Below are positions 34,230 to 55,479 of a stretch of DNA of 64,000 nt, piece after piece. Source of the DNA: Magnetospirillum moscoviense. Lineage in GTDB: Bacteria; Pseudomonadota; Alphaproteobacteria; Rhodospirillales; Magnetospirillaceae. A program made the translations under genes and the position numbers. The stretch is from assembly GCF_001650635.1 (NCBI RefSeq), contig NZ_LWQU01000130.1, positions 62,001 through 126,000 of the forward strand, given 5' to 3'. Within the stretch, counting starts at the first letter, position 1, and each line of letters opens with the position of its first letter. Below the pieces are notes generated by a model, which was given only the letters and a program-made list of their open reading frames with translations, was not told where the DNA came from and did no database searches.

Positions 34230-34784
34230 CTCAAGTCCTTTCCCCCGCCGCACCACAATCGGTACGGCAGAGCTCGTTGACATGCTCCATGTTCAGGAAC
34301 AGCAGCGACCGGCCCCACGGGAGCTGGAGGAAGGGATATTGCCGGGCTTCTGCTTATTCTTGCCAAGAAATCTGCAAAGATACTTGGCAGATCAATGCAT
34401 AGAAGCAATCGAAATCACAGTCAATACATTCTTAATATTATAAATTGTCGACAAATGTAATCATTTTTACGGGTTAATTGCCGACACACAAAACGCGCCA
34501 ACTATGAAACCATGGGTTTATGTTCGATGATTGCCGAATACAGCCAAAGCAACGCCTAAAAAAGCCAGGCTCACGCGACAATTCACATCCGAATGCCGAT
34601 ACAAATCAATATTTGTCGAAACTCAAAACAGCAAACATTAGTCATTATCACGCACATATATGTTTTTATTTTAAAAATGCGTACAATCCGAACCTTTCAC
34701 AATATATATTTAAAATGATAATCTTCACAGCACTTTGACACACACATCCCGTGTGCATCGAATATACACTTGGAGCCATTTCCC
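34230..34784. promoter_or_regulatory. AT-rich divergent intergenic region, 555 bp
   Basis: No convincing gene. From about 34390 to 34760 the DNA is strongly AT-rich. Near the RTX side there is an inverted repeat TGCCAAG/CTTGGCA (34361-34367 with 34383-34389) overlapped by ATCTGC/GCAGAT. Near the PRC-barrel gene a TTGACA (about 34736) is followed by CACAC/GTGTG and an AATATA stretch, a possible promoter for that gene. A 72-codon frame at 34520-34738 has no ribosome site or domain and was not called. Confidence 0.5.
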
Positions 34785-35153
34785 ATGACTGAGATGACAT
34801 CAATCACAACTGGTTCTCTTATTGCCGCCGACAAGGTGAATGGCACCGCCGTGTTCGACCTGACGGGCGACAAACTCGGCAGCGTTGAGAACATCATGAT
34901 CGACAAGGCCAGCGGCCGCGCCATCTATGCGGTGATGTCGTTCGGCGGCTTTCTGGGAGTGGGCGAGAAGCACCATCCGCTTCCCTGGGCCGCCTTGAAG
35001 TACGACGAAGGCAAGGTCGGCTACGTGATCAATATGGATAAGAAGCAGTTGGAAGGCGCGCCGAATTTCGATGGCGGCTCGGAATTCAACTGGACGCAGG
35101 ATTACGGCCGGTCAGTCGATGCCTTCTACAAGACGCACAGCTACTGGATGTAG
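34785..35153 (+). CDS. cytoplasmic PRC-barrel domain protein
   Basis: 122 residues without signal peptide. The PRC-barrel motif is VFDLTGDKLGSVENIMIDKA and AIYAVMSFGGFLGVGEKHHP, followed by an acidic/aromatic tail. Related small proteins in alphaproteobacteria are common in stress and photosynthesis contexts; no partner is evident. The ATG at 34785 has GGAG about ten bases upstream. Its last 13 bases overlap the end of the converging lytic transglycosylase gene. An exported paralog lies at 36115-36510. Confidence 0.88.
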   Translation: MTEMTSITTGSLIAADKVNGTAVFDLTGDKLGSVENIMIDKASGRAIYAVMSFGGFLGVGEKHHPLPWAALKYDEGKVGYVINMDKKQLEGAPNFDGGSEFNWTQDYGRSVDAFYKTHSYWM

Positions 35154-36114: not shown

Positions 36115-36510
36115 CTACTTGGCGTAAACGAATTCGGGCAGGGCCTTCAGGCTGTCCTTGGTCGCGCCCGGCAGGGAAAAGCCCTTGTCATCCTTGGTCG
36201 GATGCAAATCTTCGTAGCGCACGGCGATCAGCTTGTCGCCGATCCCCAGATAGCCGCCGACCGAGATGATCGCGAACAGGGCGCGCTGGTCCTTCGAGAT
36301 GATCATGTCGTCGATCTTGCCGATGGTCTCGCCCTTGTCGTTGTTGATGCTGCTCCCGACAATCTTGGTGCCGCGATAGCCCATCGCCACCGACTTCACA
36401 TCCATGGCGCTGATCACCTGCGGCGCGCCTTGCGCGAAAGCCGGTGCGCTGACCGTGACGGAGGCAACGGTCATCATGAGGCCGATGGCAGTACTCGTGA
36501 GAATCTTCAT
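36115..36510 (-). CDS. exported PRC-barrel domain protein
   Basis: 131 residues with a Sec signal (MKILTSTAIGLMMTVASVTV, cleavage near AFAQ). The PRC-barrel follows: DKGETIGKIDDMIISKDQRA and ALFAIISVGGYLGIGDKLIA. It resembles the cytoplasmic paralog at 34785-35153 (shared GG.LG.G.K). The ATG at 36510 is preceded by GAGGG eight bases upstream. Role unknown; small exported PRC proteins are often stress-induced in this class. Confidence 0.88.
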   Translation of the reverse strand: MKILTSTAIGLMMTVASVTVSAPAFAQGAPQVISAMDVKSVAMGYRGTKIVGSSINNDKGETIGKIDDMIISKDQRALFAIISVGGYLGIGDKLIAVRYEDLHPTKDDKGFSLPGATKDSLKALPEFVYAK

Positions 36511-36622
36511 ATTATTGTCCCTCGATCCAAGCGATCAGCGATATGCATGACCGCGCACACCATAGAAGCGGACAGACAAGACAGAAACCGTCGGAAACTA
36601 CTCATCGCATTTCATCAAACAA

Positions 36623-39600
36623 TTACCCCATGATTACATGCAAATAGTGTGTCATGCCATCATCGATCAAACTAATATACAATGGACGCTGCTCCACGAC
36701 CGTAGAATCGAAGGTTGCGTAGGTAATTCCCGACTCGACGCCCGAAGGGTTCTCGACGGCGATCTCGATCCGCGCGGCACCGAAATTCAGCACCAGTTCA
36801 AAACCACCCCAGCCCTTGGGGATGCACGGTCCGAACCGCAGGATGTCGCCATGCAGGCAGGCCCCCAGGATGCTTTCGATCCCGGCGCGCTGCATCCAGC
36901 CGGCCGAACCGGTGTACCAGGTCCACCCGCCACGTCCGACATGGGGCGGCCTGGCATAGATGTCGGCCGCGACCACATAGGGCTCGACCTTGTAGCGCAG
37001 CAAGGCCGAGCGGGTTTTCGCGTGATTGATGGGGTTGAGCATGGAAAACAACGCCCCGGCCTTGTCGCCCTGGCCCTGCGCCGCAAAGGCCATCACCGAC
37101 CACAGGGCGGCATGGGTGTACTGTCCGCCATTCTCGCGGATGCCGGGGGGATAGCCCTTGACGTAGCCGGGTTCCAGAGTGGTCTTGTCGAAAGGGGGCG
37201 CGAACAGCAGGGCCACACCATCTTGCGGACGGATCAGGTCGCGCTCGACCGCCGCCATGGCTTGGCGGGCCCGTTCGGGGTCCGCCGCGCCCGACAGCAC
37301 GGCCCAGGACTGGGCGATGGCGTCGATCCGGCATTCCTGGCTGGTGGCCGATCCCAACGGCGTCCCGTCGTCGAAATAGCCCCGCCGGTACCAGGCGCCA
37401 TCCCAGCCCGCGCCCTCAAGGGCGGCCTGCAAGGCGACGGTGTGGGCCTTCCACCGGGCGGCGCGGACATCCTGGCCGCGAGCCTGGGCCAGCGGAACAA
37501 AGGCCATCAACGTCGCATAGAGCAGCCAACCCAGCCACACGCTCTCGCCTTGCCCGCCCTCGCCGACCCGATTCATGCCGTCGTTCCAGTCCCCCGTTCC
37601 CATCAACGGCAAACCGTGGCTCCCCAGCGACAAGCCAAGATCCAGACCGCGGGCGCAATGCTCGAACAACGAGGCGGCCTGATCGGAACGCCTGGGCAGA
37701 TAGAAGCTGTCATGCTCGCCCTCGGCCAGTTTCTCGCCTTCCAGGAACGGCACCGACTGGTCGAGAACCGCCTTGTCTCCGGTCGCGTCCACATAATGGG
37801 CGACGGCATGGCCCAGCCAGACCCGATCATCGGAAATGCGCGTGCGCACGCCCTGGCCGGAGTGGGGCAGCCACCAATGCTGGACGTCGCCTTCGATGAA
37901 CTGCCGCGACGCCGCCCGCAGCAGATGCGCGCGCGTCAGGTCGGGACGGCAGCCGACCAGCGCCATGCCGTCCTGGAGCTGATCGCGAAAGCCATAGGCG
38001 CCGCTGCCCTGATAGAACCCCGACCGCGCCCAGAACCGGCACACCAGCGTCTGATAGAGCAGCCAACCATTCAACATGAGATCCATGGAGCGATCGGGAG
38101 TCTTGACCGCCACCCGCCCCAACACGCCGGTCCAATGGCTGCGGACTTCGGCGAACACCGCGTCAAGATCGGCCGCCCGATAATGGGCGATCAGGCTTTG
38201 CGCCTCGTCGTCGCTGGCGGCTTGCCCCAGAAAGCAGACGATCTCGATCTCGCCGTCGGCCGGCAAGGTGAAGGCGGTGCGCATGACGCCGCATGGGTCC
38301 AGCCCCGCGCCGACCCGATTGGACAACCGCCCCGCCCCCACCCCCGCCCTGGCCCCAGCCAACGCCAAGGGAGAGGCCAGCGAACCGTTGCGGCCGATGA
38401 ATTCGCGGCGATCGCCGGTCCAGTCGGTCTGGCGCCCGCCCAGATCGAGGAAGGCCACCCGCGAACCGAACGCCGCGTTCCAGGGATTGCGGGCGAACAT
38501 CGCCCCGGTCTTGCCGTCGATGCCGGTGATGAGAAACGGGCAAGACAAGGCGCGGGCGGCGCCCAGTATCCACTCGACATAAGCGGTGGCGCTAAGATGG
38601 CGAACCCGGCCAGACCGATTGCGCAGCACCAGCCGCGAAATCTTCACCGACCCGTTCATCGGCACGAACTGCACCAAATCAGAGGCGATTCCGTGCGCCG
38701 TGTGCTCGAAGCGGCTATAGCCCCAGCCATGGCGGGCGACATAGGTCGCCGCCTCGTCGCGGATGGGCAGCGCCGTCGGGCTCCACACCGCTCGGGCGTC
38801 CCGGTCATACAGATAGAAGGCCTCGCCCGACCGATCCGAGACCGGGTCGTTGGACCAGGGGGTGATCTGGTTTTCGTGGCTGTTGACCGACCAGGTGAAA
38901 CCCCCGCCTTCCGTCGGAACCTGAAAGCCGAATTCCGGATTGGCGACGACGTTGACCCATGGCGCCGGCGTCGCCTGGCCCGGCCCGAGGATGGTGACGT
39001 ATTCGCGCCCATCCTCGGCGAAACCGCCCAGGCCGTTGAAGAATTCCAGCGGCAATGGTGGCGGCAACGGGGTGGACGGAGATTTCCGCCCGGGCCGCCT
39101 TGCCGCCGGCAGATCCTGGGTCCCGGCAAATCGCCCGCCCCAGTTCAACTGCTCCGACAAGGTCCCACGGTGCGCCACCAGCACGATCCTCGCCACGGCG
39201 GCAAGAAGGTGCTGAACCTCGTCCGGCACCAGCGCGGCTCGCAGCAGGAACACCCGCCCTTGCGGCCCATCGCCGCCACCCGCCGCCCGTGACTGGCTGG
39301 TCCTGACCAGGGTCTCGAGAGCGACGTGCAGGTCCTGGACATACGAGGATTGGTGTTCGTTCAAGATCACCAGATCGACCGCCAGGCACTTCAGGCGCCA
39401 ATATTCGTGGGCCTGCAGCAACTCGTGAACGATCTGCAGATATTCCAGGTCGGCAATGCGCAGGAACACGATGGGCAGATCCCCGGAAATCCCCAGCCCC
39501 CACAAGCCGGATTGCGGGCCGGCGCCCCGGCTGATGGTGTCCGAGATGGGGCGCACCAGCGGCGTGGCATGGATCACATGGCCGGCCAGACGCTGGAACA

Positions 39601-42600
39601 CCGCGGATTCCCCGGCGGAAATCCCCAGATGGTGCAATTGCACCTGCGCCTGGGTCCAGGCCAGCGTTGCCGCCCGGGCAAAGGCGGTGGCGCTGCGGTG
39701 GCGGTCGATGCTGTCCAGCAATCCGGTGCGGGTCGAGGCAAGCATGGTCCAAAAGGCGATCCGCACCACCGCGCCTGGCGCCACCCGCACTCTGCGGCGC
39801 AGGGCGAAGACCGGGTCGAGCACGGCGCCGACCGTCCCCGACAGTGGCCGCCCATCGACCATTGCCAACGGCGAGCGAACCCCGCGGCTGCGCCCCAGGA
39901 AGCGGGACCGGTCGGTTTCGATCTCGAGCGGGCCGATGACCTCGCCGTCAACCACGGACAGATGCGCCGCCCAGACCTCCGGTTCGGACGCCGAGCGCCG
40001 CCGCCGCGTCGCCACGATGGCGCCTTGGGCGGGCAGAAGCTCGGTCTCGACGAACAGTTTGTAGAAGGCCGGGTGCGCGATGTCGTTGCCCTGGGTGGTC
40101 AGCACCAGTTCCGCATACGAGGTAACCTCGATGACGCGGGGAAGAGGACCGGAATTGGAGATCGAGACGCGCCGGACCTCGGCATCGTCCTCGGGGGACA
40201 CCAGCACCTCCATCGAGGTGGTCAGCGTTCCGTCGCGTCGGGTGAATTCGGCCCGGTCCTCGTTGAAGGCGACATGATACTCGTCGGGTTCGATTGCGGT
40301 GGGCTGCAGACCCGCCGACCAGAATGCCCCGCTCTGGGTGTCGCACAGAAAGATCGCCGACCCGCTGTCGTCGCAGGTCGAATCCTCGCGCCAGCGGGTC
40401 ACCGCCATGTTGCCCCAGCGACTATAGCCGGACCCGGCCGTGGTCAGCATGGTGGCAAAACGTCCGTTCGACAGCAGAAGGACCGCCGGCGTGGCCTGGT
40501 TGGCCGAGCTGAAGCGCCGCCCGCCGGACGGTTCGACACCATCGGCCCGGGTGTCGGATTGCACTTCCGCCGCCCAGGCATGGGCCACCGACATGTCGCG
40601 CGGCACGCGTTCTTGCAGCAACAGCTCGGTGGCCTGGATCATCGGATCGGCGTGAAACCTGGCCCGCATGACACCATCGAACAGGGCGTTGGCGATGGCC
40701 ACGATGGTCATCCCCTGGTGGTGGGCCATGAAGGCCCGGACGATGGTGACGGTCTGGCCGGCCGGGACCCGGGCCGGGGTGTAGTCCAGGGCCTCGTAGA
40801 AGCCGTGGCGCCCGCGCCCGCCCGCCGCGGCCAGCCGGGTCAGATTGGCGGCGGCGGCGGCGGGATCGACCATGGTGGCCAGGGCGGTCGCATAGGGCGC
40901 GATGACCAGATTCTCGCCAAGCCCGCGCTTCAGACCAAGGCCGGGAACGCCGAAATTCGAGTATTGGTAGGTGAGTTCCAGATCGCGGGCGTTGAAGGCG
41001 GATTCGGAAATGCCCCACGGCAACGCCAAGCCGTCGGCATAATCGATCTGACGCCGCACCGCCAGACGGGCGGTCTGCTCGATCAGGCTGCCGGCCGGAG
41101 CCCGCATGACCAACGACGGCATCAGATACTCGAACATCGAGCCCGACCACGAAATCAGCGCCGCCCGGTGCGCGACCGGCGTGACCGAGCGGCCCAGGCG
41201 GAACCAGTGCCGGGCGGGAATATCGCCCTTGGCGATGGCGAAGAAACTGGCCAGCCTCGCCTCGGACGCCAGCAGATCGTAACAATTGCCGTCCTGGCTC
41301 GCCTCGGCGGGCAAATAGCCGATGGACAACAACATGCGCTCGCGGTCGAGCAGGAAGGCGAACTGCATGCCCACCGCCAAGCCCCGCGCCGTGCCGGCAA
41401 TGGCCTCGGCGCGGTTGTTGCGCGCCACGGCCAGGTTTTGCCCGAGATCGCGGCGCTGGCTGGCGATGGACGCCACGCAGGCCCCGGCCCAGAACAGCAT
41501 GTCGCCGGCGGCCGGGTCGTCGCGTTCCATGGCCAGGGCGCGCGCGATATCGACCATGATCTCGGCACTGGCGGCCAATTCCGACCAAAGCCGCGCGACC
41601 GGTTCCGGACCGATCGGCGTCTGGCCCGCCAACGCGGCCAATGCCGCCAGCGCGTCGTCCAGTTGGCCCAGGGTCACCGTCTGGGTCTGGCGGCCATCGC
41701 GCAAGTGGGCCACCTCGTCGCGGGTCAGGGCGATCGCATCAAGGAGTCCGGCCAGGACCTCCTGGGTTCCCCGCTCCCGGCCCTGCCATTCGCGGCACGC
41801 ATTGGCCAGGGCGATCAGATGCCCGGCCAGATTGCCGCTATCGACGGACGAGACGTATTTGGGCTCAAGCACCCGTAGATCGCGGGTGTCGTACCAATTG
41901 TAGAAATGACCGTTGAAGCGCTCCAGCCCGGCCATGGTGGCCAGCGTGGCCTCGATCCGGTCCATGGCCTCGTCGGTGCCGATCCACCCGAAATCGCGGG
42001 CGCTCACCACCGACAGCAGGTAAAGCCCGATATTGGTGGGCGAGGTTCGGTGAGCCAGGACCGGAACGGGATCTTCCTGGAAATTGTCCGGCGGCAGCAT
42101 ATGGTCGAGAGCGGTCACGGTGGTTTCGAAGTACCGCCAGGTTCGCCGTGCCGTCAGGCGCAGGATCGCCCTATCGGCGGCGGTCACCGGGATTCGCCCG
42201 GCGACAGCGGGCGACCGGCTGGCCCACCACGCCACCGCCGGAGCGATTGCCCACAGGGCGGCGAAAGCCAGGGCGACGATCCAGCTTCCCGGTTGGGCGG
42301 CGATCAAGGCCACCGCCACCGCCGGCACACCCAGCACCATCCCGCCGACCATCCTGCGGGTGAACCCGGCCGGGCCAAGCCGTGCCCCGTTGGCCGCCTG
42401 CGCCGCCGGCACCCATTCCAGCAGATGAATGCGGCTGACGAACAGCCGCCAAACCGTGCGGATGATCGCATCGCCCATGACCCAGGCGGTATGGGCCAGA
42501 AAGGTGATGATCAGTCCCGACAGCGAGGCGGCAAGGCCAAGATCGGCGGCCAGAGCCCGCAAATGGCTGATCAGGCTGACCTCGCGGCGGCACGGCGCAA

Positions 42601-45109
42601 TGGCGGCGACCACCGGAATCAGGGTCGGCAGGATGATGGTCGACAATATGAAGGCCGTCCAGATCAGGGCCTGGTCCAGCGGTAACGCCACGCCGGCGGC
42701 AAGGGCCATGATTGCGGTGGGGGCCGACAGGGTGCGGCGCAGATTGTCCACCATCTTCCAGCGGCCGATGGCGGGAACGCCGCCGCCGGCCCGACCGGCC
42801 CCGCGGCCGAAGATCCACGGCAGAAGCTGCCAATCGCCGCGCGCCCAGCGATGGCTGCGCAACGAGCAGACGTCGTAGCGGGCGGGAAATTCCTCGATCA
42901 CCTCTACATCGGTCGCCAGTCCGGCCCGGGCGAACACGCCTTCGAACAGATCGTGGCTGAGCAGCGAGCATTCCGGCACCCGGCCGGCAAGGGCGGCTTC
43001 GAAGGCATCGACGTCATAGATCCCCTTGCCGGCATAGGAGCCCTCGCCGAACAAATCCTGATAGACGTCGGAAACCGCCGAGGCATAAGGGTCGATCCCG
43101 CTCAGACTGGAGAAAATGCGCTGAAACAGCGACCCCTCGGTGCCGATGGGCAGCGACGGCGTGACGCGGGGTTGCAACACGGCATAGCCATCGATGACCC
43201 GGCCGCCCGCGCTGTCGAACCGGGGGTGGTTGAGCGGATGCGCCATCTTGCCGATCAGCCGGCGCACCGTGTCGCGCGGCAGACGGGAGTCGGAATCCAG
43301 GGTCACCACGTAGCGAACATCCGAAGGCACCATGCCGCCGATGAACGAGGTGTCGGTGGCGCCGCGCAGCAGACGGTTCAACTCGTGCAGCTTGCCGCGC
43401 TTGCGCTCCCAGCCGATCCACCGACCCTCGCCGGGATTCCACTGGCGGCGCCGGTGAAGCAGCAGGAATCGCGGGCGGCCGCCGGGAGCCGGACCGTAGC
43501 GGGCGTTCAGCCGATCGATTCCGTGGATTGCCGCGACAAGAAGCGCCTGGTCCCCGTCGACCTGCTCGGTCACCGCATCGGTCCAGTCCGACAGCAAGGC
43601 GAAATGGAGATGCCCGCCCAGGCTGGCGAGATGATGTACCTCCAGGCTCTCGACCTGTTGATCGATACCTTCCTTCGAGGTCAGCAACGTCGGAACCGCC
43701 ACCACCGTCCGCAACGAAGCCGGCACGCCGTCGCGCAGTTCCATGGCCGGCAACAGCGTCGCATGAAAACCCGCGGTGACCGCGCGATTGACCAGGGCCA
43801 CCGCCGCGTCGATGGCGGGGATCAGACCCAGCCCCGCCAGAAGTCCCAGTCCCCAGCCCCCCAGGCCGCCCATGAACAGGATCGTCAGCGGCAGCGCCAG
43901 AAGACACCCGGTGGTCAGCATGATGGCCAAGCCAAAACCGCCTATGCCGGGAGTTCCGACCAGGCGCCGCAGCCGAACCCGCACCGGTACGCGATATCCC
44001 AAGGTGGCCTCGAACGCCTCGCGGCCGGCGGACAAGAGATGGTAACCGGGGTCGACCTGGCGCGGATCGCTCCCCGACGACATGGCCGCCGCCGCCCGCA
44101 CCGCCAGTTGCGCCACCTCGATCTCGCCTCGCTTCGCCCCCAGGGCCAGATCCTCGACGGCGGTGCGATAGAGGTTGCGTGTGGGAAAGTCCATGTCGCT
44201 GAAGCCGGGGGCGCCGGCCAGCACCTCGTTAACCAGACTGATGCCCTCGAAGAACTCGGTCCAATCGACATCGGAAATCAGGCGCAGGCTGGTGATGATA
44301 TTGCGAACGGTCACGGTCGAGGCGCCCTGCTGCCGGTGCACTTCGCGAACCACCGCCTCGGCGTTGGTTCCCTGGGCGGCAAGACGCTCGTCGAGCATGG
44401 TCAGGGCCGGGGTGATCCGTGGGTCCTGATCACGCAGCCGGTGCAGCAATTGCACGGCGAACGGGTCGGAAAACGGCCGCCGCTTCTGGTCGGCCAGCAC
44501 CACCGGCAGCGGCTCGGCCGCCCCCAGCAATCGATCGGCCAATCCGTCGGCCTGCTGGCGGGCCAGGCGGTTGCGCATGATCGCATCGGCCAGGCGCCGC
44601 AAGTTCTCGATCAGCACCACCTTCAAGGTGATGCCCAGCGCCCACAATTCCCCGATGGTCAGCGGCTGGACCTGCTGATAGGCCAGAACATAGCGGCGCA
44701 GCATCAAGGAATCGAACCGGCTGTCGGTATGGGCGACGAATCCCCAGGCGATCCCGAACACCCGCGGATAGCCGGCGAACGGACCGACGGCCAGCTTGGG
44801 CAGTTGGCGATAGAATCCCGGCGGCAATTGGGCGCGGATATCGCTGATCTGCCGCTCGACCAGATGGTAATTGTCGATCAGCCACTCGGCAGCCGGCGTG
44901 ATGGCCGCGCCCGCGGAAATGGTCGTCACCAGAAGACGATAGGCCGCCAGCAGCACCGAGCCATTGTCGGCCAAACGGTCGGCCAACGGATGGCCCCTGA
45001 TCAGTTTGGGCGTCACCGTCTGCGCCTCGGCCAGGCTTCGGCCGTGTTCCTCCAGCCGCCCGACGCTGAACAATTCTTCGCGAATCGGCGGCAGGCAATC
45101 CAAGGACAT
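36623..45109 (-). CDS. ndvB: cyclic beta-1,2-glucan synthase NdvB
   Basis: About 2828 residues, the usual size for NdvB. The order is an N-terminal domain, membrane helices near residue 390 and again about 800-970, a GT84 glucosyltransferase between them (YVVTLDSDSRLP near 605, RWARGDWQLLPW), then two carbohydrate-binding repeats and a C-terminal GH94 phosphorylase-like domain (GTGDWNDGMNRVGEGGQGES near 2510) that sets chain length. It makes cyclic osmoregulated periplasmic glucans from UDP-glucose. The start is uncertain: the ATG at 45109 lacks a good ribosome site, while an AGGAGG lies upstream near 45160, six bases before an in-frame CTG. Confidence 0.95.
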   Translation of the reverse strand: MSLDCLPPIREELFSVGRLEEHGRSLAEAQTVTPKLIRGHPLADRLADNGSVLLAAYRLLVTTISAGAAITPAAEWLIDNYHLVERQISDIRAQLPPGFYRQLPKLAVGPFAGYPRVFGIAWGFVAHTDSRFDSLMLRRYVLAYQQVQPLTIGELWALGITLKVVLIENLRRLADAIMRNRLARQQADGLADRLLGAAEPLPVVLADQKRRPFSDPFAVQLLHRLRDQDPRITPALTMLDERLAAQGTNAEAVVREVHRQQGASTVTVRNIITSLRLISDVDWTEFFEGISLVNEVLAGAPGFSDMDFPTRNLYRTAVEDLALGAKRGEIEVAQLAVRAAAAMSSGSDPRQVDPGYHLLSAGREAFEATLGYRVPVRVRLRRLVGTPGIGGFGLAIMLTTGCLLALPLTILFMGGLGGWGLGLLAGLGLIPAIDAAVALVNRAVTAGFHATLLPAMELRDGVPASLRTVVAVPTLLTSKEGIDQQVESLEVHHLASLGGHLHFALLSDWTDAVTEQVDGDQALLVAAIHGIDRLNARYGPAPGGRPRFLLLHRRRQWNPGEGRWIGWERKRGKLHELNRLLRGATDTSFIGGMVPSDVRYVVTLDSDSRLPRDTVRRLIGKMAHPLNHPRFDSAGGRVIDGYAVLQPRVTPSLPIGTEGSLFQRIFSSLSGIDPYASAVSDVYQDLFGEGSYAGKGIYDVDAFEAALAGRVPECSLLSHDLFEGVFARAGLATDVEVIEEFPARYDVCSLRSHRWARGDWQLLPWIFGRGAGRAGGGVPAIGRWKMVDNLRRTLSAPTAIMALAAGVALPLDQALIWTAFILSTIILPTLIPVVAAIAPCRREVSLISHLRALAADLGLAASLSGLIITFLAHTAWVMGDAIIRTVWRLFVSRIHLLEWVPAAQAANGARLGPAGFTRRMVGGMVLGVPAVAVALIAAQPGSWIVALAFAALWAIAPAVAWWASRSPAVAGRIPVTAADRAILRLTARRTWRYFETTVTALDHMLPPDNFQEDPVPVLAHRTSPTNIGLYLLSVVSARDFGWIGTDEAMDRIEATLATMAGLERFNGHFYNWYDTRDLRVLEPKYVSSVDSGNLAGHLIALANACREWQGRERGTQEVLAGLLDAIALTRDEVAHLRDGRQTQTVTLGQLDDALAALAALAGQTPIGPEPVARLWSELAASAEIMVDIARALAMERDDPAAGDMLFWAGACVASIASQRRDLGQNLAVARNNRAEAIAGTARGLAVGMQFAFLLDRERMLLSIGYLPAEASQDGNCYDLLASEARLASFFAIAKGDIPARHWFRLGRSVTPVAHRAALISWSGSMFEYLMPSLVMRAPAGSLIEQTARLAVRRQIDYADGLALPWGISESAFNARDLELTYQYSNFGVPGLGLKRGLGENLVIAPYATALATMVDPAAAAANLTRLAAAGGRGRHGFYEALDYTPARVPAGQTVTIVRAFMAHHQGMTIVAIANALFDGVMRARFHADPMIQATELLLQERVPRDMSVAHAWAAEVQSDTRADGVEPSGGRRFSSANQATPAVLLLSNGRFATMLTTAGSGYSRWGNMAVTRWREDSTCDDSGSAIFLCDTQSGAFWSAGLQPTAIEPDEYHVAFNEDRAEFTRRDGTLTTSMEVLVSPEDDAEVRRVSISNSGPLPRVIEVTSYAELVLTTQGNDIAHPAFYKLFVETELLPAQGAIVATRRRRSASEPEVWAAHLSVVDGEVIGPLEIETDRSRFLGRSRGVRSPLAMVDGRPLSGTVGAVLDPVFALRRRVRVAPGAVVRIAFWTMLASTRTGLLDSIDRHRSATAFARAATLAWTQAQVQLHHLGISAGESAVFQRLAGHVIHATPLVRPISDTISRGAGPQSGLWGLGISGDLPIVFLRIADLEYLQIVHELLQAHEYWRLKCLAVDLVILNEHQSSYVQDLHVALETLVRTSQSRAAGGGDGPQGRVFLLRAALVPDEVQHLLAAVARIVLVAHRGTLSEQLNWGGRFAGTQDLPAARRPGRKSPSTPLPPPLPLEFFNGLGGFAEDGREYVTILGPGQATPAPWVNVVANPEFGFQVPTEGGGFTWSVNSHENQITPWSNDPVSDRSGEAFYLYDRDARAVWSPTALPIRDEAATYVARHGWGYSRFEHTAHGIASDLVQFVPMNGSVKISRLVLRNRSGRVRHLSATAYVEWILGAARALSCPFLITGIDGKTGAMFARNPWNAAFGSRVAFLDLGGRQTDWTGDRREFIGRNGSLASPLALAGARAGVGAGRLSNRVGAGLDPCGVMRTAFTLPADGEIEIVCFLGQAASDDEAQSLIAHYRAADLDAVFAEVRSHWTGVLGRVAVKTPDRSMDLMLNGWLLYQTLVCRFWARSGFYQGSGAYGFRDQLQDGMALVGCRPDLTRAHLLRAASRQFIEGDVQHWWLPHSGQGVRTRISDDRVWLGHAVAHYVDATGDKAVLDQSVPFLEGEKLAEGEHDSFYLPRRSDQAASLFEHCARGLDLGLSLGSHGLPLMGTGDWNDGMNRVGEGGQGESVWLGWLLYATLMAFVPLAQARGQDVRAARWKAHTVALQAALEGAGWDGAWYRRGYFDDGTPLGSATSQECRIDAIAQSWAVLSGAADPERARQAMAAVERDLIRPQDGVALLFAPPFDKTTLEPGYVKGYPPGIRENGGQYTHAALWSVMAFAAQGQGDKAGALFSMLNPINHAKTRSALLRYKVEPYVVAADIYARPPHVGRGGWTWYTGSAGWMQRAGIESILGACLHGDILRFGPCIPKGWGGFELVLNFGAARIEIAVENPSGVESGITYATFDSTVVEQRPLYISLIDDGMTHYLHVIMG

Positions 45110-45585
45110 GGGCCAACGTCGGCACCACAATGCCCGCCGCAGAAATCCGGCCAGACGATTCCTCCTGCATGATGAAAGCAACCTCGATCCCCCCTTGGTG
45201 AGAATGCCGCGATGTCATTGCTCTACAGAGCGACGACGGACGCGGGCACCCGATGGCGGGTCGGCGCGGTACGTGCGATGCCTGAAGAAGGAGAAATGAA
45301 CCGGGTTTACGCCCTAGCCACACAATAGCGGACCAGTGCGGGAGGAATGCAGGGTCGGAAAATACCGAAGTCGGGCATTCGCCACGCCGCGAACCGGCTC
45401 CGGCGGGTCCGATGCCGCCCGTGTGACGGGAGTAAATTCCGAACCTCCCAATGCTGCGCAGCACCAATGTAGTGTGCCGCGGTCGGCTGGGCCTGGGTAT
45501 CGACCGGCGCCTAGCGGCCCCTAACAAATGTAGGTCTGCCAGTAATTTGGGCCACCCGACAAAATAACCATGTTACAATTAATCG
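45110..45585. promoter_or_regulatory. divergent intergenic region, 476 bp
   Basis: Lies between ndvB (leftward) and the CheB/CheR-kinase fusion (rightward). The first 70 bp may encode an ndvB N-terminal extension. I see no convincing gene: short plus-strand frames near 45270-45330 and 45346-45470 have purine-rich leaders but no recognisable product. The end, from about 45530, is AT-richer and probably holds the promoter for the signalling gene. Confidence 0.45.
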
Positions 45586-48500
45586 ATGCGCGTTTCCGGG
45601 GCGCAAGCTGAGAGATACTCCCAAATGCAGAACCAAGAGATGCCGCCGTCCGGCGCACCGGAACCGCAGCACAGCCAGGAATGCTTTCCCGTTGTTGGCA
45701 TTGGCGCATCGGCCGGCGGACTTGACGCCTGCGAAAAACTTCTGTCCGCCATGCCAGATGCAATCGGCGCCGCCTTCATTCTGGTGCAGCACCTGGATCC
45801 GACCCACAAAAGCCTGATGGTCGACCTGCTGGCCAAGCATTCGGGCATGGTGGTAAGGCAGGCCGCCGACGGCATGGTGGTCGAGCCCAATTCCGTCTAT
45901 GTCATTCCGCCGGGAACCTACCTGTCCGTCGCCGACGGCACCCTGCGCCTGACGGCGCCGCAGGCGCGCCACGGCACCCGCCTGCCCTTCGATTTCCTGC
46001 TGCACTCGCTGGCCGATGAATATGGCGCACGGTCGGCCTGCGTCGTCCTTTCCGGCACCGGAAGCGACGGCAGCCTGGGACTGAGGTCGATCAAGGCCAG
46101 ATCGGGTCTGGTCATCGCACAAGATCCCGACCAGGCCGGCTATGACGGCATGCCCCGAAGCGCGATCTCCACCGGCGATGTCGATCAAGTGCTTTTGGTG
46201 GAAAGCATCCCTGCCGTTCTGGCGGATTTTTCCCACCGGCTGTCCCTCTCCCTTTCCGACGACCAGGATGCGAAGCCGGCCGATCGCGAGGACTGGCTGC
46301 CCGAGATCATCAGCCACCTGCGGGCCCAGACCTCGCACGACTTCACGCTTTACAAGCGCGGCACGCTGCAACGCCGTATCCTGCGGCGCATGGGGACCGA
46401 CACCATCAGCCCGGGCGATATGGCGCGCTACCTTGACCGCCTGCGGGCAGAACCGGACGAGGCCGAGCTTCTGGCCAAGGACCTGTTGATCAACGTCACC
46501 AGCTTCTTTCGCGATCAGAAGGTGTTCGAGTTCCTGTCGGAAAACATCATCCCCGACCTGATCGCCCGGCGACAGGCGGACAACACCCTGCGCGTCTGGA
46601 TCGCCGGGTGCAGCACCGGCGAGGAGGTCTATTCGCTCGCCATGCTTCTGCGCGAGCAGATCACGGTGACGGCCGGCAGCACCAAGGTGCAGATCTTCGC
46701 ATCCGACGCCGACCCCGATGCCGTGGCCGCCGCCCGCGAGGGTCTGTACCCGGAAACCATCGCCGCCGACGTTTCAGAGGCGCGACTGACCCGGTTCTTC
46801 ATCAAGGAAGGCCACAATTACCGGGTTACCCCCGAACTGCGCACCATGGCGGTTTTCACCGTGCATGACGTGTTGTGCGACCCGCCCTTCTCGCACCTGG
46901 ACCTGATTTCCTGCCGCAACCTGCTGATCTATTTGCGTCCCGAGGCGCAGGCCAAGGTGATTTCGCTGTTCCACTTCGCCTTGCGCGACGGCGGCATTCT
47001 CCTGCTCGGCAGTTCCGAAACCGTCGGGAGCAGCGAAAGCCGCTTCCGCGTCGTGTCGAAACCAGAGCGGATCTATCGACAGATCGGCCGCCACCGTCCC
47101 GGCGATCTGGGCCTGTCCCCGGCCTCGGCCCCGGGAATCCGCCCGGCCACACGGGTGGGGCAGTCCGCCGGTGCCTCGCGCCAGGCGGTGTTGGCCGAAC
47201 TGTGCCGCCGGATGGTGTTGGACGCCTTCGCGCCGGCAGCCATCCTGATCAACCGCAAGTTCGAGTGCCTTTATCTGCTGGGGCCGACCGACCGCTATCT
47301 GAGCGTCACGCCCGGCTATCCGACCCATGACCTGCTGTCGCTGGCGCGGCCCGACCTGCGCACCAAACTGAGATCGGCCATTCACAAGGCCAGCCAGGAC
47401 GGCGCCAGGACGGTGGTGGCCGGCGGCACGGTCAGCCATGACGGCTTCGATCATGCCTTCGCCATCGATGTGCAGCCGGTGGCCCATGAAGGCGAAGACC
47501 TGTTGCTGGTCTGCTTCATTGACGCCCCCCAGCAGACGGAGGCGACGCCAGCGGTCGCACCGGCGGATCGCACGCGCGTTGCCGAATTGGAATTGGAACT
47601 TGAAGCGACGCGGTCGGAATTGCTGGGCGCCATCCGCGATCTTGAATTGTCGAGTGAAGAGCAGAAAGTCATCAACGAGGAAGCCCTGTCTGTCAACGAA
47701 GAATATCAGTCAACAAACGAAGAAATACTGACGTCAAAAGAGGAACTTCAGTCGCTGAACGAGGAGCTTACCGCACTCAACAGTCAGCTTCAGGAAACCC
47801 TGGAGCAACAGCGCACGACAGCGAACGATCTGGAAAACATTCTATGCAGCACTGACCTTGCCACGATATTCCTAGACCTTGCATTCAACATCAGGTTCTT
47901 CACCCCAAGGACAAAGAATATCTTCAGCGTCATTCATTCCGATATCGGCCGCCCCCTGGCCGACCTGAGTTCGCTGGCCGAAGATCCCACCTTGCTGGAA
48001 GATGCGCAGACGGTGGCGCGCACCCTTGAGCCGCTGGAGCACGAAGTCGAAGCCCGCAACGGCAGTTGGTACCTGCGCCGCATCCTTCCCTATCGCACCA
48101 AGGAAAACGGGGTCGAAGGCGTGGTGATCACCTTCACCGACGTCACCGAGCGGCACAGGATCGCGGACGCCCTGGAGGCCGCCACGCAGCAGGCGCAAGG
48201 GGCCAACATCGCCAAGTCCCAGTTCCTGGCCGCCGCCAGCCACGATCTTCGCCAGCCGCTGCAGACCCTGACGCTTCTTCAGGGATTGCTGGAATCCACG
48301 GTGACCGGCGATACCGCCCGGGACCTGGTCGCCCGCTTCGACGAAACGCTGGGCGCCATGTCGGGTATGCTGAACACCTTGCTCGACATCAATCAGCTGG
48401 AGGTCGGCACCGTTCATCCCGAGCGGGTCGATTTCATGATCAACAAGATCCTGACCTCCCTTGCCTCCGAATTCAGCTATCATGCTCAGTCGCGCAATCT

Positions 48501-49992
48501 GACCCTTCGCGTGATGCCGTGCACCATGATCATCAACAGCGACCCGCGCCTGCTGGAGCAGATGATCCGAAATCTGCTGTCCAATGCGTTGAAGTACACC
48601 CAAACCGGCAAGGTGCTTCTGGGCTGCCGCCGCCGGGCCGGACGGCTGAGCATCGAGGTGTGGGACACCGGCATCGGCATTCCCGCAGACCAGATCGACG
48701 CGATTTTCAGCGAACATTATCAGATCGATAATCCGGCCCGGGAACGCGGCCGGGGGCTTGGCCTTGGCCTGTCCATAGTCCAGCGGCTTGGCACCTTGCT
48801 GGACCACCACATCCGGGTCGACTCAAGGCCGGGCCAGGGCTCGATGTTCGCCATCGAGGTGGGACCGATCGCGCCCGCGTCGCCTTGCTCCACCCAACGC
48901 CCGAGCCATGGTGTGACCTCGTGGGCCGCTCCCCGCAACGGCCAGATCCTGATCGTCGAGGACGACCCCGAGGTCCGCGACCTTCTTCAGCTCTATATCC
49001 GGGCCGAGGGTCTTCGCTCCGCCTCGGCCTATGACGGCATCGCGGCCATGGAGATGGTCACCGCCGGAGCCATCCACCCCGATTTGCTCCTGTCGGATTT
49101 CAACCTGCCCAACGGCATGGACGGCGCCCAGCTGGCGACCAATATCCGATCCCACCTTGGCCGCCAAATCCCGGCCATCATCCTGACCGGAGACATCTCG
49201 ACCGAGACGTCGCGGGCCATTTCACGGGCCAATTGCATCAAGATCAACAAACCGGTGCGATTGCAGGACCTGAAGCGGACCATCCTCATCCATCTTCCCA
49301 CGCTGCCACCCACTGCTCCCGCAGCGGCCCGTCCGACCGAGAAATCGGCCGAGCCGGCACACGACTCCCCCACGGTCCATGTGGTCGATGACGACGACCA
49401 GATTCGCGACACCATCCGCGAACTCCTGGAAGGAGTCGGGCTGGCGGTCGAGGATTATGCGTCCTCCGAGGCGTTTCTGGCCTCGTTCCGGCCCGGCCGC
49501 GAAGCCTGCCTGCTGATCGACGCCTATTTGCCGGGAATGAGCGGCATCGATCTGCTGCACCGTCTGAAGGATACCAACCAGAACCTGCCGTCCATCATGA
49601 TCACCGGCCACGGCGATGTTCCCGTCGCGGTCGAGGCGATGAAGGCCGGCGCCCTGGATTTCATCGAAAAGCCGGTCGGCCAGGCCAAATTGCTGGACTG
49701 CGTCAGGCATGCCATCGACCTGTCCCGAGACGCCGTCAAACTGACGAGCTGGCGGGAAACGGCCGCCAACCATCTGGCCAGCCTGACCCCCCGGCAACGC
49801 CAGATCATGGAACTGGTTCTGGCCGGCCACCCCAGCAAGAACATCGCCGCCGACCTGGGCATCAGTCAGCGCACGGTGGAAAACCACCGCGCCTCGATCA
49901 TGAAAAAGACGCGCGCCAAGTCGCTTCCCGCCCTTGCCCGTCTGGCCGTCGCCGCCGGCAAGGCCGGACAGGAAAGCCGACCCGACGAGTGA
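45586..49992 (+). CDS. CheB-CheR-PAS-histidine kinase-REC-REC-LuxR hybrid signalling protein
   Basis: 1468 residues. Domains: CheB methylesterase (about 38-215; GIGASAGGLDA, QHLDPTHKS), CheR methyltransferase (about 240-500; WIAGCSTGEEVYSLAML), a coiled coil (about 660-755; EEYQSTNEEILTSKEELQSL), PAS (755-858), HisKA (SHDLRQPLQTL near 883), HATPase (GRGLGLGLSIV near 1055), receiver 1 (near 1120; ILIVEDDPEVRDL), receiver 2 (near 1262; VHVVDDDDQIRDT) and a FixJ/LuxR DNA-binding domain (LTPRQRQIMELVLAGHPSKN). All steps from sensing to DNA binding lie in one chain. No membrane helices or chemoreceptors are near. The start may instead be the ATG at 45625. Confidence 0.93.
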   Translation: MRVSGAQAERYSQMQNQEMPPSGAPEPQHSQECFPVVGIGASAGGLDACEKLLSAMPDAIGAAFILVQHLDPTHKSLMVDLLAKHSGMVVRQAADGMVVEPNSVYVIPPGTYLSVADGTLRLTAPQARHGTRLPFDFLLHSLADEYGARSACVVLSGTGSDGSLGLRSIKARSGLVIAQDPDQAGYDGMPRSAISTGDVDQVLLVESIPAVLADFSHRLSLSLSDDQDAKPADREDWLPEIISHLRAQTSHDFTLYKRGTLQRRILRRMGTDTISPGDMARYLDRLRAEPDEAELLAKDLLINVTSFFRDQKVFEFLSENIIPDLIARRQADNTLRVWIAGCSTGEEVYSLAMLLREQITVTAGSTKVQIFASDADPDAVAAAREGLYPETIAADVSEARLTRFFIKEGHNYRVTPELRTMAVFTVHDVLCDPPFSHLDLISCRNLLIYLRPEAQAKVISLFHFALRDGGILLLGSSETVGSSESRFRVVSKPERIYRQIGRHRPGDLGLSPASAPGIRPATRVGQSAGASRQAVLAELCRRMVLDAFAPAAILINRKFECLYLLGPTDRYLSVTPGYPTHDLLSLARPDLRTKLRSAIHKASQDGARTVVAGGTVSHDGFDHAFAIDVQPVAHEGEDLLLVCFIDAPQQTEATPAVAPADRTRVAELELELEATRSELLGAIRDLELSSEEQKVINEEALSVNEEYQSTNEEILTSKEELQSLNEELTALNSQLQETLEQQRTTANDLENILCSTDLATIFLDLAFNIRFFTPRTKNIFSVIHSDIGRPLADLSSLAEDPTLLEDAQTVARTLEPLEHEVEARNGSWYLRRILPYRTKENGVEGVVITFTDVTERHRIADALEAATQQAQGANIAKSQFLAAASHDLRQPLQTLTLLQGLLESTVTGDTARDLVARFDETLGAMSGMLNTLLDINQLEVGTVHPERVDFMINKILTSLASEFSYHAQSRNLTLRVMPCTMIINSDPRLLEQMIRNLLSNALKYTQTGKVLLGCRRRAGRLSIEVWDTGIGIPADQIDAIFSEHYQIDNPARERGRGLGLGLSIVQRLGTLLDHHIRVDSRPGQGSMFAIEVGPIAPASPCSTQRPSHGVTSWAAPRNGQILIVEDDPEVRDLLQLYIRAEGLRSASAYDGIAAMEMVTAGAIHPDLLLSDFNLPNGMDGAQLATNIRSHLGRQIPAIILTGDISTETSRAISRANCIKINKPVRLQDLKRTILIHLPTLPPTAPAAARPTEKSAEPAHDSPTVHVVDDDDQIRDTIRELLEGVGLAVEDYASSEAFLASFRPGREACLLIDAYLPGMSGIDLLHRLKDTNQNLPSIMITGHGDVPVAVEAMKAGALDFIEKPVGQAKLLDCVRHAIDLSRDAVKLTSWRETAANHLASLTPRQRQIMELVLAGHPSKNIAADLGISQRTVENHRASIMKKTRAKSLPALARLAVAAGKAGQESRPDE

Positions 49993-50030: not shown

Positions 50031-50320
50031 CTGCCGCCATTGCGGCGGCGGCCAAGCCCGCGGATGCGGGCGCCCGGCCGAGGGGCATTCACCAATCACG
50101 AACCGAATACAGACCCTGCAAAACGCTGCTGCCGATTGGCGGCAGGCGCCAGTCTTCGTGCGCACGAAGGTCAGGCATTATGTTGGTATATTCCACCCCT
50201 CCTCAAACCAACAACATTACAAGTATTATACATAGTACGTACATTTCAGATCGCGACATCACACATGCTCGCAATGCATCCAGTTCAACTGGATACATAC
50301 ATACCCAAGGAATTCATACG
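50031..50320. promoter_or_regulatory. hairpin-rich then AT-rich intergenic region
   Basis: No gene seen. It holds GCCGCC/GGCGGC, CCCGC/GCGGG and CTGCCG/CGGCAG stems, then a perfect 16-bp palindrome CTTCGTGCGCACGAAG (50154-50169). After 50170 the DNA becomes AT-rich and contains GTACGTAC and the palindrome ATCCAGTT-C-AACTGGAT (50278-50294) just upstream of the DUF3309 gene, presumably its promoter and operator. Confidence 0.5.
50278..50294. promoter_or_regulatory. operator-like palindrome before the DUF3309 gene
   Basis: Perfect 8-bp inverted repeat around a single base, 27 bases upstream of the start codon, overlapping where a promoter or leader would lie. Regulator unknown. Confidence 0.4.
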
Positions 50321-50479
50321 ATGAGCTTAGGAACAATTCTGCTGATCGTGCTGGTTCTATTCCTGATCGGGGCTCTTCCCCGCTGGCCGCATAGCGCCGG
50401 GTGGGGATACTACCCTAGCGGCGGACTCGGCCTGATTTTGTTGATCGTCGTCATCTTGCTACTCACCGGGCGACTATAG
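50321..50479 (+). CDS. DUF3309 small membrane protein
   Basis: 52 residues, nearly all in two membrane helices (MSLGTILLIVLVLFLIGALP and GLGLILLIVVILLLTGRL) joined by the conserved WGYYPSGG turn. This is the standard form of the DUF3309 family of alphaproteobacterial small membrane proteins, often stress-induced; molecular function unknown. AAGGAA lies about eight bases upstream of the ATG. It is monocistronic. Confidence 0.88.
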   Translation: MSLGTILLIVLVLFLIGALPRWPHSAGWGYYPSGGLGLILLIVVILLLTGRL

Positions 50480-50612
50480 CCAAATAACCTGGGTATTTTC
50501 CGACGCTGTACCAACAGCGACGCAAGGTAATACCCTGCACATCCGCAATAATGAGACAACTTCTTAATTTCCGGCAGACAATCTAGAGCCTCAGACGGTT
50601 TCCGCATGCCGC

Positions 50613-50677: not shown

Positions 50678-51583
50678 ATGAAATCGTACGCGAAGCTCGC
50701 GGCGCCTTTGTTTCTTTTCAGCCTGGCCGCCTGTAACGGCACCCCGGCCAACGGCTGGATCCCCGGAAGCGTCTACCAGATCGAACAATTGTCCATGGCG
50801 ACCTTCAAGGGCTCGCCCTTCACCCAGGCCCTGGCCGCCAACTATCTGGCCCTCGCCCGGGCCGAAAAGGAAGAGTACGACTGGAATTCCCAGAAGACCT
50901 TCGCCTCCAAGGGCCTGATCGCCGCCAAAGGCACCGCCCCGCCGCCGGAGACGCTGGAATACTGGAACGTCTCGGACCGTGCCGCCGCCAAGGATCTGGG
51001 CATTGCCCGGGCGCGCCTGATGACCATGCTGGCCACCGACGCGCCGGCGCGGGTGCCGCAATGGGCCGCCAACGCCCAGACCAATTTCGACTGTTGGATT
51101 CAGGAACAGGAAGAAGGCTGGCAGTTCGACGAGATCGCCGCCTGCCGCACCGCCTTCATGACGACCATGGACCTGATCGCCGCGCCGCCAAAGCCGGTTG
51201 CCGCGGCAAGTCCTTCGGTGCCGCCCGCACAGCCGGCCGCCACCAAGCAGACCAACTTCCTGATGTTCTTCGACTTCGACCAGTCCGCTCTGACGTCCGA
51301 GGCGAGCAGGATCATCGCCAACGCCGTCAAGGCCATCGCCGCCGACAAGCCGGCGATCATCAAGATCATCGGCTACACCGACACCAGCGGCACCCCGGAA
51401 TACAACATGAAGCTGTCGCTGCGCCGCAGTCAGGCGGTCGAGAACGAACTGACCCGCAACGGGGTTGCGCCGTCGTCGATCCGCGTCGAGGGCGTCGGCG
51501 AAGGCAATCTGCTGACACAAACCGCCGACGGGGTGCGCGAGCCGCAGAACCGCCGCGCCACCATCGACCTCCTCGGGCGATAG
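50678..51583 (+). CDS. OmpA-family lipoprotein
   Basis: 301 residues. The signal peptide ends in LAAC (MKSYAKLAAPLFLFSLAACN). The N-terminal domain (about 25-170) is helical with an aromatic-rich segment (FDCWIQEQEEGWQFDEIAAC). A Pro/Ala linker leads to a C-terminal OmpA peptidoglycan-binding domain (FFDFDQSALTSEASRIIANA; GYTDTSGTPEYNMKLSLRRS). AAGGAG lies seven bases before the ATG at 50678. It starts a run of four lipoprotein genes that probably tether the outer membrane to the wall. Confidence 0.92.
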   Translation: MKSYAKLAAPLFLFSLAACNGTPANGWIPGSVYQIEQLSMATFKGSPFTQALAANYLALARAEKEEYDWNSQKTFASKGLIAAKGTAPPPETLEYWNVSDRAAAKDLGIARARLMTMLATDAPARVPQWAANAQTNFDCWIQEQEEGWQFDEIAACRTAFMTTMDLIAAPPKPVAAASPSVPPAQPAATKQTNFLMFFDFDQSALTSEASRIIANAVKAIAADKPAIIKIIGYTDTSGTPEYNMKLSLRRSQAVENELTRNGVAPSSIRVEGVGEGNLLTQTADGVREPQNRRATIDLLGR

Positions 51584-54188: not shown

Positions 54189-54479
54189 CTAATTGCCTTC
54201 GATGATCACCTGACCTTGCGGGGTCAGAACGATATTGACCGCGACGCCATTCCTGACCGCCGTCGCATGCCAGAAATTGTCGCAGCTTTTCTTCAGGCCG
54301 CTGATGTCAAGGAACCCTGCCGCTTCCATCTTCTTCTTCGCCGATTGGGCCGAGGACGCATCGATGATGTCGCCATCGAGGCATCCTTCCGCCTGGGCCG
54401 GGGAAGAAATCCACGGCCATCCGCCGATACCAAGCGACACGATCGTCACCACCACCATGGTCCATATCTTGATCAACAT
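54189..54479 (-). CDS. small exported PepSY-like protein
   Basis: 96 residues with a signal peptide (VVVTIVSLGIGGWPWISSPA, cleavage near AQAE). The mature part AAGFLDISGLKKSCDNFWHA then VRNGVAVNIVLTPQGQVIIE follows the one-helix-plus-hairpin pattern of PepSY-like proteins. Two cysteines (EGCLDG, KKSCDN) may pair. GAGG precedes the ATG at 54479. It lies 56 bases upstream of the LpxR-like gene on the same strand. Confidence 0.7.
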   Translation of the reverse strand: MLIKIWTMVVVTIVSLGIGGWPWISSPAQAEGCLDGDIIDASSAQSAKKKMEAAGFLDISGLKKSCDNFWHATAVRNGVAVNIVLTPQGQVIIEGN

Positions 54480-54613
54480 TGGCCACCTCAATTGTATATT
54501 ATTTTCTACGCCATGTTTTATTTTTATAAATCCGTTAAGTAGATTCCGATTCTTTCCACGAGCATGGCAACACATGACATTTGACCTGGTCACATGAGGA
54601 TCGGAGGTCAGGC

Positions 54614-55188: not shown

Positions 55189-55338
55189 CTACTTGAAGAG
55201 CTGCGGGTACAGTCCGACCACGCCCACGATGATCAGATAGATCGCGACGATGTAGTTCAGCAGCCGTGGCTGGACCAGAATCAGAATTCCGGCCACCAGG
55301 GCGATAATCGGCTCGAGCCGTAGCGATTGGAAATCCAT
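55189..55338 (-). CDS. DUF3096 small membrane protein
   Basis: 49 residues read on the minus strand, starting MDFQSLRLEPIIALVAGILI and containing QPRLLNYIVAIYLIIVGVVG. The LxPIxALxAGxLIL..PRLLNYIVAIYLI pattern is the DUF3096 signature of very short two-helix proteins. Function is unknown. It sits just upstream of the other minus-strand two-helix protein gene, and the two may be co-transcribed. Confidence 0.85.
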   Translation of the reverse strand: MDFQSLRLEPIIALVAGILILVQPRLLNYIVAIYLIIVGVVGLYPQLFK

Positions 55339-55479
55339 GTGCCTTACCCCAGTGCGAGTTGGCCGCCGCGACGAACGCCGCCCTGACCAACGCCAGGCGG
55401 GATTCGTCAGCGAAGATCCACCCCCGACAGTAGCGGCCCGGCCCGGTTGCCGGCAGGATCGGAAACTACCTGCGGTCGT

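Follow-up and report, generated by a model that had tools for sequence, protein, structure and literature searches.

A CheB-CheR-PAS kinase with a FixJ-type DNA-binding end in Magnetospirillum moscoviense, and its probable DNA target

The 64,000-nucleotide stretch of the Magnetospirillum moscoviense genome analysed here (contig NZ_LWQU01000130.1, positions 62,001 to 126,000; hereafter the window) encodes, at positions 45586-49992, a protein that begins with the chemotaxis-type domains CheB and CheR, continues with a PAS domain and a histidine kinase (HK), and ends with two receivers (REC1 and REC2) and a FixJ-type helix-turn-helix (HTH). Comparative genomics suggests that this chain acts on DNA, and the element TGAGTAnTTTCCGAnnCT is its probable DNA target. 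We consider it likely that the protein forms a cytoplasmic single-chain two-component system, in which an input would be passed over His886 and receiver 2 to the HTH, which would then act through this element on stress and envelope promoters. The architecture, the conserved residues, the DNA element with its orientation and −10 spacing, and the co-occurrence of element and protein were read directly from the sequences.

The initial annotation had described one chain running from CheB/CheR to a FixJ-type DNA-binding end, and this description was borne out. The frame was open, and all domains were recognised by Pfam above the curated cut-offs, in the following order:

45586..49992, plus strand: the fused gene CheB-CheR-PAS-HK-REC-REC-FixJ, 1468 codons and then a stop, open throughout
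45694..46218, plus strand: CheB methylesterase domain (Pfam, residues 37-211)
46303..47067, plus strand: CheR_N and CheR methyltransferase (Pfam, residues 240-494; CheR_N 240-289, CheR 303-494)
47830..48147, plus strand: PAS_10 domain (Pfam, residues 749-854)
48211..48858, plus strand: HisKA (876-939) and HATPase_c (986-1091), NahK/ErcS-like (Pfam, residues 876-1091)
48937..49293, plus strand: receiver 1, residues 1118-1236 (limits set by us), with Asp1171 (Pfam Response_reg)
49375..49704, plus strand: receiver 2, FixJ-type, residues 1264-1373 (best Response_reg stretch), with Asp1312 (Pfam)
49780..49947, plus strand: GerE/LuxR HTH, FixJ-type, residues 1399-1454 (Pfam)

No frameshift or stop was found between the receivers, either here or in those relatives (55 of 80) whose frame is complete. 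The gene may start instead at the ATG at 45625, giving 1455 amino acids (aa); the closest relative (L009) has an ATG at the aligned place and our rough gene caller also picked 45625, but in other relatives the possible starts are closer to the first ATG. HisKA, HATPase, receiver and DNA-binding HTH share one frame, which places the protein, broadly defined, among the single-chain (hybrid) two-component systems. Its REC2-HTH part, with a receiver, a GerE HTH and the phospho-acceptor Asp, is that of a NarL/FixJ response regulator; the last 200 residues aligned end-to-end with the solved FixJ structure 5xso (E 4.7e-44), and the whole protein scored 241.6 bits against the NCBIfam FixJ model PRK09390, below its cut-off of 255. 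In 56 aligned sequences, Ser42, His69 and Asp161 of CheB, which we take to be the active site, were kept in 55, 56 and 56, and the CheR loop residues that were checked in 54-56. His886 of HisKA (SHDLRQPL), Asp1171 and Asp1312 were each present in 56/56, and the receiver Lys was kept in 56 (receiver 1) and 53 (receiver 2).

To place the chain among its relatives, we used the best 80 of at least 570 confirmed loci from a scan of one genome per species. The scan patterns lay within CheB/CheR, so that HTH-bearing relatives lacking these domains are under-sampled. All seven parts were in one frame in 55 loci, 8 were cut at contig ends, and 17 had other forms. Among the latter, REC2-HTH was still encoded in L021, L051, L064, L070, L076 and L083 (in a broken frame, or for L051 in a frame without CheB), L047, L054 and L065 stopped after REC1, and eight had other architectures. 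The relatives retained the fusion at 48-71% identity, and the fused frame is therefore not due to chance; by this comparison the architecture is an established one and no accident. The chain had been called unusual at first, but the full order is the usual form of the closest relatives (55/80), though patchy in the order, where a fusion at E 1e-230 was found in 13/248 genomes. In the family, matches at E 1e-230 or better occurred in 9/55 genomes, including the window genome and with G008 and G013 cut by contig ends; in the window genome the fused gene was the sole full copy found. The hosts of the best 80 loci were mostly Alphaproteobacteria, and others included Paraburkholderia, Caballeronia and Dyella. 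Five stretches of viral contigs matched a search pattern, none of them a relative. Some genomes were sampled twice: by coordinates, G283 (the genome of L078) is G057, and contigs of L019 and L053 match contigs of G052 and G054 in length.

The DNA element emerged from comparison of 80 upstream regions, namely that of the window and those of 79 loci (L051 excluded, non-fused forms included). By word count, GAAACTAC occurred in 20/80 regions, against 0.2 expected. A matrix search found the element in 49/80 regions, in 48 of them on the same strand; the matrix was trained on these 49 upstream sites, and a strict pattern, of which the −10 element formed no part, was derived from the matrix. At a score of at least 19, sites were present on the strand of the gene in 46/80 regions, on the opposite strand in 1/80, and in none of the shuffles. 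In reverse reading the element is T[G/A][A/G]GTAnTTTCCGAnnCT. According to the available part of PMC4999443, the FixJ consensus from systematic evolution of ligands by exponential enrichment (SELEX) is GTAGTTTCCC and the fixK site is TAAGTAATTTCCCTTA; the reverse complement of our predicted binding site agreed with this SELEX consensus, as given there, in 9 of 10 letters.

In the window, the strict pattern had 8 matches with at most one mismatch, 3 of them perfect, where shuffles gave a mean of 0.06. Of 193 sites in the 80 loci and the contig of the window, 188 fell between called genes, in DNA of which 84% is coding. A gene began within 400 bp of 155 sites in the direction from TGAGTA to TTTCCGA and for 87 in the other direction; where only one side had such a start, it lay in the FixJ-like direction for 83 sites and in the other for 15. 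The distances from site to gene start peaked at 60-140 bp. When the 188 sites were aligned, the box TANNNT stood at offsets 44, 45 and 46 in 14, 51 and 34 of them and at any other offset in at most 7, except for the TA of the motif itself, and no −35 box was seen. If the −10 box is assigned its usual position, the site spans about −52 to −35; at fixK, the stretches protected by FixJ are −69 to −44 and −57 to −31, as stated in the available part of PMC4999443. The predicted layout, taken from the consensus of the 188 sites and a −10 pattern present in about half of them, is as at class II activator promoters.

A fixed distance to a second element and a single orientation would also suit the promoter half of a special sigma factor. 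EcfG-type −35 elements contain GGAA, which the element shares. However, the conserved blocks lie 22-26 bp from the −10, which is farther than a −35 would be, the −10 itself is sigma-70-like, and the sequence fits the FixJ SELEX site; we regard this alternative as highly improbable and discarded it on the spacing.

In the window, the predicted FixJ-like sites and the genes that they read to were:

34673..34698, minus strand: site (score 19.3) reading to a PRC-barrel gene (34785-35153, plus strand)
36584..36609, plus strand: site (score 25.6) reading to a PRC-barrel gene (36115-36510, minus strand), candidate −10 TATGGT at 36559-36564
45348..45373, plus strand: site (score 25.0) reading to the divergent GH94 gene, candidate −10 TATTGT at 45322-45327
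45424..45449, minus strand: weaker site (score 14.2) reading to the fused gene, candidate −10 TAGTGT at 45470-45475
50485..50510, minus strand: site (score 28.4) reading to an OmpA-family gene (50678-51583, plus strand)
54531..54556, minus strand: site (score 25.2) reading to a doubtful called gene at 54614 (plus strand)
55452..55477, plus strand: site (score 17.1) reading to a DUF3096 gene (55189-55338, minus strand), candidate −10 TACTGT at 55427-55432

TANNNT was found at offset 45 or 46 in 6 of these 7 sites, the exception being 54531. On the far side of that site starts a PepSY-like gene (54189-54479, minus strand; PepSY_2 24.2 bits against a cut-off of 24.3). The GH94 gene, divergent from the fused gene, is a very long GH94/glucoamylase gene (36623-45181, minus strand) of about 2830-2850 aa, which resembles the ndvB cyclic glucan synthase. 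Autoregulation by a strong upstream site as a general rule was given up because that site reads away from the gene (46/80, against 1/80 towards it); the weaker site of the window was kept.

To identify the binder of the element, we compared the distribution of sites and proteins across genomes. In the order sample, at least 3 strict sites were present in 11/13 genomes with the fusion (E 1e-230) and in 7/235 without it, and the reversed pattern, used as a control, matched in about 20/248 genomes, once each (counted by eye). Three of the seven site-rich genomes without a fusion match (G034, G035 and G041) carry a two-gene HTH-bearing version. A second sample comprised 24 genomes that we chose behind named loci (control 1/24); here 13 of 14 fusion genomes had at least one strict site. 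Two genomes with only an HTH-less version at E 1e-50, ending after receiver 1 (G267 and G268, of L054 and L065), had 0 sites, as had all six genomes of other CheB/CheR proteins (L089, L092, L093, L095, L097 and L098). The genome of L075 had 10 sites and encodes the HTH in two separate frames, one of 951 and one of 553 aa. In the window genome, all 7 strict sites lay on the contig of the fused gene (188.8 of 4164 kb). By association, these distributions suggest that the element is bound by the FixJ-like end of this protein family. Caballeronia sordidicola (G266, of L047), with sites and a locus lacking the HTH, was dropped as a counter-example, since its genome has further HTH-bearing copies. 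It carries three such full-length copies, two REC1-ending versions and 49 strict sites, a natural set for the study of paralogue specificity.

Several observations weigh against this assignment. Among fusion genomes of the order, G262 had 1 strict site and G190 had 0; in the second sample only 6/14 fusion genomes had at least 3 and five had just one, and that of L028 had the fusion and no strict site, with a looser one present. Sites occurred in G002 (6) and G222 (3), which have no HTH-bearing relative at E 1e-50 and in which another regulator may use the site, and in G048 (9) and G130 (3), where the matches found were limited to REC-HTH, within frames of 495 and 613 aa; the match in G130, at 51% identity, begins 231 bp from one site. 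The zero-site genome G267 is a 2.4 Mb metagenome-assembled genome (MAG) that may be incomplete. Co-occurrence partly follows shared ancestry, site positions depend on gene calls from our own rough caller, only about half of the sites have the −10-like box at the fixed spacing, and the strong upstream site mostly reads away from the fused gene. Another FixJ-like protein could use the site: the element would belong to a different FixJ/NarL-type regulator or cascade, with the fused protein merely within its regulon. The window genome does encode other FixJ-like proteins, with 48% and 43% identity to REC2-HTH, and the orientation of the upstream site and the sites in G002 and G222 would suit this explanation. 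On the other side, G037 has such a FixJ-like open reading frame (45%) yet 1 site, the two genomes with HTH-less versions only had 0 sites, and the sites cluster at the fused gene; we judge a different regulator quite unlikely.

In the favoured system, the fused protein itself would bind the element. We infer this binding, the path of the phosphate, what receiver 1 does, that promoters are activated and not repressed, where transcription starts, the input, and the function of CheB/CheR. Input through the CheB-CheR-PAS half would set the kinase, and His886 would be phosphorylated. The phosphate would pass directly to the FixJ-type receiver 2 (Asp1312), as it does from FixL to FixJ, and receiver 1 (Asp1171) would serve as a sink or brake. 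Phosphorylation of receiver 2 would free the HTH to bind TGAGTAnTTTCCGAnnCT at about −52 to −35, and the bound HTH would recruit the housekeeping form of RNA polymerase to promoters that have a −10 but lack a −35 box. The targets would be neighbouring stress and envelope genes and, in M. moscoviense, also the ndvB-like gene, exopolysaccharide genes, a second CheB-CheR-PAS gene and, through the weaker site, the fused gene itself. Some relatives have a divergent gene for a one-domain receiver, which would also be a target; its product may be a brake similar to FixT.

The conservation of Asp (56/56) and Lys (56 and 53 of 56) in both receivers counts against direct transfer and would fit a four-step relay from His886 over receiver 1 and a separate Hpt protein to receiver 2. 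The best NCBIfam match over HK-REC1 (residues 873-1233) was the NahK/ErcS model NF041832 (356 bits, below its cut-off of 400), and NahK/ErcS kinases use outside Hpt proteins. However, FixL phosphorylates FixJ directly, and no Hpt domain was found in the chain (Hpt genes in the genome were not searched for); such a relay appears somewhat unlikely.

The first half may in turn be an inert scaffold. This would agree with L118 and L120, HTH-bearing proteins in frames without CheB/CheR, which have sites just upstream (G041:C32:80559 and G034:C13:196327). The CheB Ser/His/Asp and the checked CheR loop residues are, in contrast, kept in 54-56 of 56 sequences, and we consider a scaffold role unlikely. 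A further possibility is that CheR and CheB methylate and demethylate a dedicated partner, or else the coiled-coil/PAS segment of their own chain, and thereby let the kinase adapt like a chemoreceptor. We judge this quite unlikely; if true, the protein would be a transcription factor that adapts and keeps a short-term memory by itself. It would travel together with its regulon and, in some hosts, activate a one-domain receiver that acts as its brake.

We also examined where related chains are split. The initial annotation had proposed a kinase fused with a neighbouring fixJ-like gene, for which the relatives gave no demonstration, as the two-gene versions split at PAS/kinase instead. In G034, G035 and G041 of the family, two adjacent intact genes encode CheB-CheR-PAS (874-885 aa) and PAS-HK-REC-REC-HTH (778-795 aa); in G034 the two halves are in the same frame and are separated by a stop codon. 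PAS/kinase is therefore the most recent joint that can be seen, with two-gene versions sought in 7 + 8 genomes of our choice. Against this picture, the MAG locus L083 (5174-9453) is broken between the receivers: its REC2-HTH is in a frame of its own, which overlaps the last part of the kinase frame and may reflect either two genuine genes or a frameshift in the assembly. L021 and L064 have stops elsewhere. Two of the three two-gene genomes also have an HK-REC-REC-HTH gene (802 or 846 aa) in a frame without CheB/CheR (L118 and L120). In a quick HK-REC1 tree of 89 rows, with few outgroups and weak deeper forks, five HTH-bearing proteins without CheB/CheR grouped together (support 97) beside the fused ones, in a clade with support 99. 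The REC1-ending L047, L054 and L065 fell among the fused ones (79-row group, support 93), with L065 unresolved at the base. In our reading, the kinase-FixJ chain was already complete when CheB-CheR-PAS became fused to it, and a few lineages appear to have lost the FixJ end; an older kinase-fixJ fusion is likely on general grounds.

Single chains that combine a kinase with a regulator are already known, and the new part would be the CheB-CheR-to-FixJ variant with its predicted regulon. The hybrid two-component systems (HTCS) of Bacteroides are membrane sensors with kinase and DNA-binding response regulator in one chain, as described in the available part of PMC11253607. The fused protein shares that arrangement with HTCS so described, and differs by its CheB-CheR-PAS input, two receivers and a GerE/FixJ-type HTH. 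HTCS in the narrow sense have an AraC-type HTH and an extracytoplasmic sensor, whereas here the HTH is GerE, CheB begins at residue 37 and no AraC domain is present. The likeness to FixL-FixJ lies in the end-to-end match of REC2-HTH with FixJ, a predicted DNA site that resembles FixJ sites and a receiver recalling FixT among the predicted targets of some relatives. In contrast to FixL-FixJ, kinase and regulator are fused, the input is another one, the predicted targets are stress and envelope genes rather than fixK, and the score is below the FixJ cut-off. NahK/ErcS hybrid kinases are alike over HK-REC1; the fused protein adds a second receiver and the HTH, and scores below their cut-off. CheB-CheR-PAS proteins and kinases without a DNA-binding end resemble the first half and stop after PAS, kinase or receiver 1; several of the CheB-CheR-PAS type are encoded in the window genome (L002, L003 and L004). 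An Azospirillum survey lists, in its available part, CheB and methyltransferase domains among histidine-kinase inputs (PMC4618731). In the openly accessible literature we found no description of a CheB-CheR-to-FixJ chain or its DNA site, and among the papers listed for the exact motif strings none on this subject by title.

To our knowledge, the output of CheB/CheR-type kinases is usually unknown. They would thereby gain a predicted output, comprising a DNA site, the layout of the promoters and a list of targets, and a role of CheB/CheR outside chemotaxis would become measurable by a reporter gene. The predictions are testable in Roseiarcus fermentans, Caballeronia sordidicola, Dyella sp. S184 and Paraburkholderia humisilvae and, if true, imply a stress and envelope regulon alongside EcfG in Alphaproteobacteria.

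The predicted targets appear to be largely a stress and envelope set. Among 138 target genes, the 116 from the loci, of up to 500 aa, were scanned for domains; 18 had a receiver domain, 7 were ferritin-like, 6 had a glycine zipper (Rick_17kDa), 5 BON and 5 OmpA, and DUF3309, CsbD, the PhyR-type sigma-2 domain and YflT were found in 3 each. In the window, the predicted targets were the two PRC-barrel genes, the ndvB-like GH94 gene, the OmpA-family gene and the DUF3096 gene. The initial annotation had also pointed to a palindrome at 50278-50294 as a candidate binding region. The palindrome is real, a perfect one of 17 bp at exactly 50279-50295, upstream of a DUF3309 gene (50321-50479), but it is not conserved; it was dropped as a regulatory target because only the locus of the window, 1 of 136, has it.

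A divergent one-domain receiver gene lay upstream of the fused gene in 25/80 loci (for example L021, L023, L025, L026, L028, L029 and L031), counted from a raw cluster of 30 with L035, L049, L056, L080 and L082 set aside. This receiver family is FixT-like in size and setting; FixT is a feedback brake on FixL, according to the available part of PMC7078487. No homologue was found in the window genome at E 1e-8, an empty answer that alone shows little, and the receiver was dropped as a universal partner.

Beyond the window, predicted targets in the same genome include a second CheB-CheR-PAS gene, an epimerase, a polysaccharide export gene and a phosphomannomutase, as well as a sugar transferase gene 366 bp from its site, and these lie near exosortase and PEP-CTERM genes. 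The second CheB-CheR-PAS gene (L004, G000:C130:129084-131609) encodes 841 aa with no kinase and has a FixJ-like site 57 bp upstream that reads to it; its product may supply or modify the same signal as the fused protein. At about 135-178 kb of the same contig (L133-L135) are genes for an exosortase, a PEP-CTERM ice-binding-like protein and exopolysaccharide, several of them behind FixJ-like sites.

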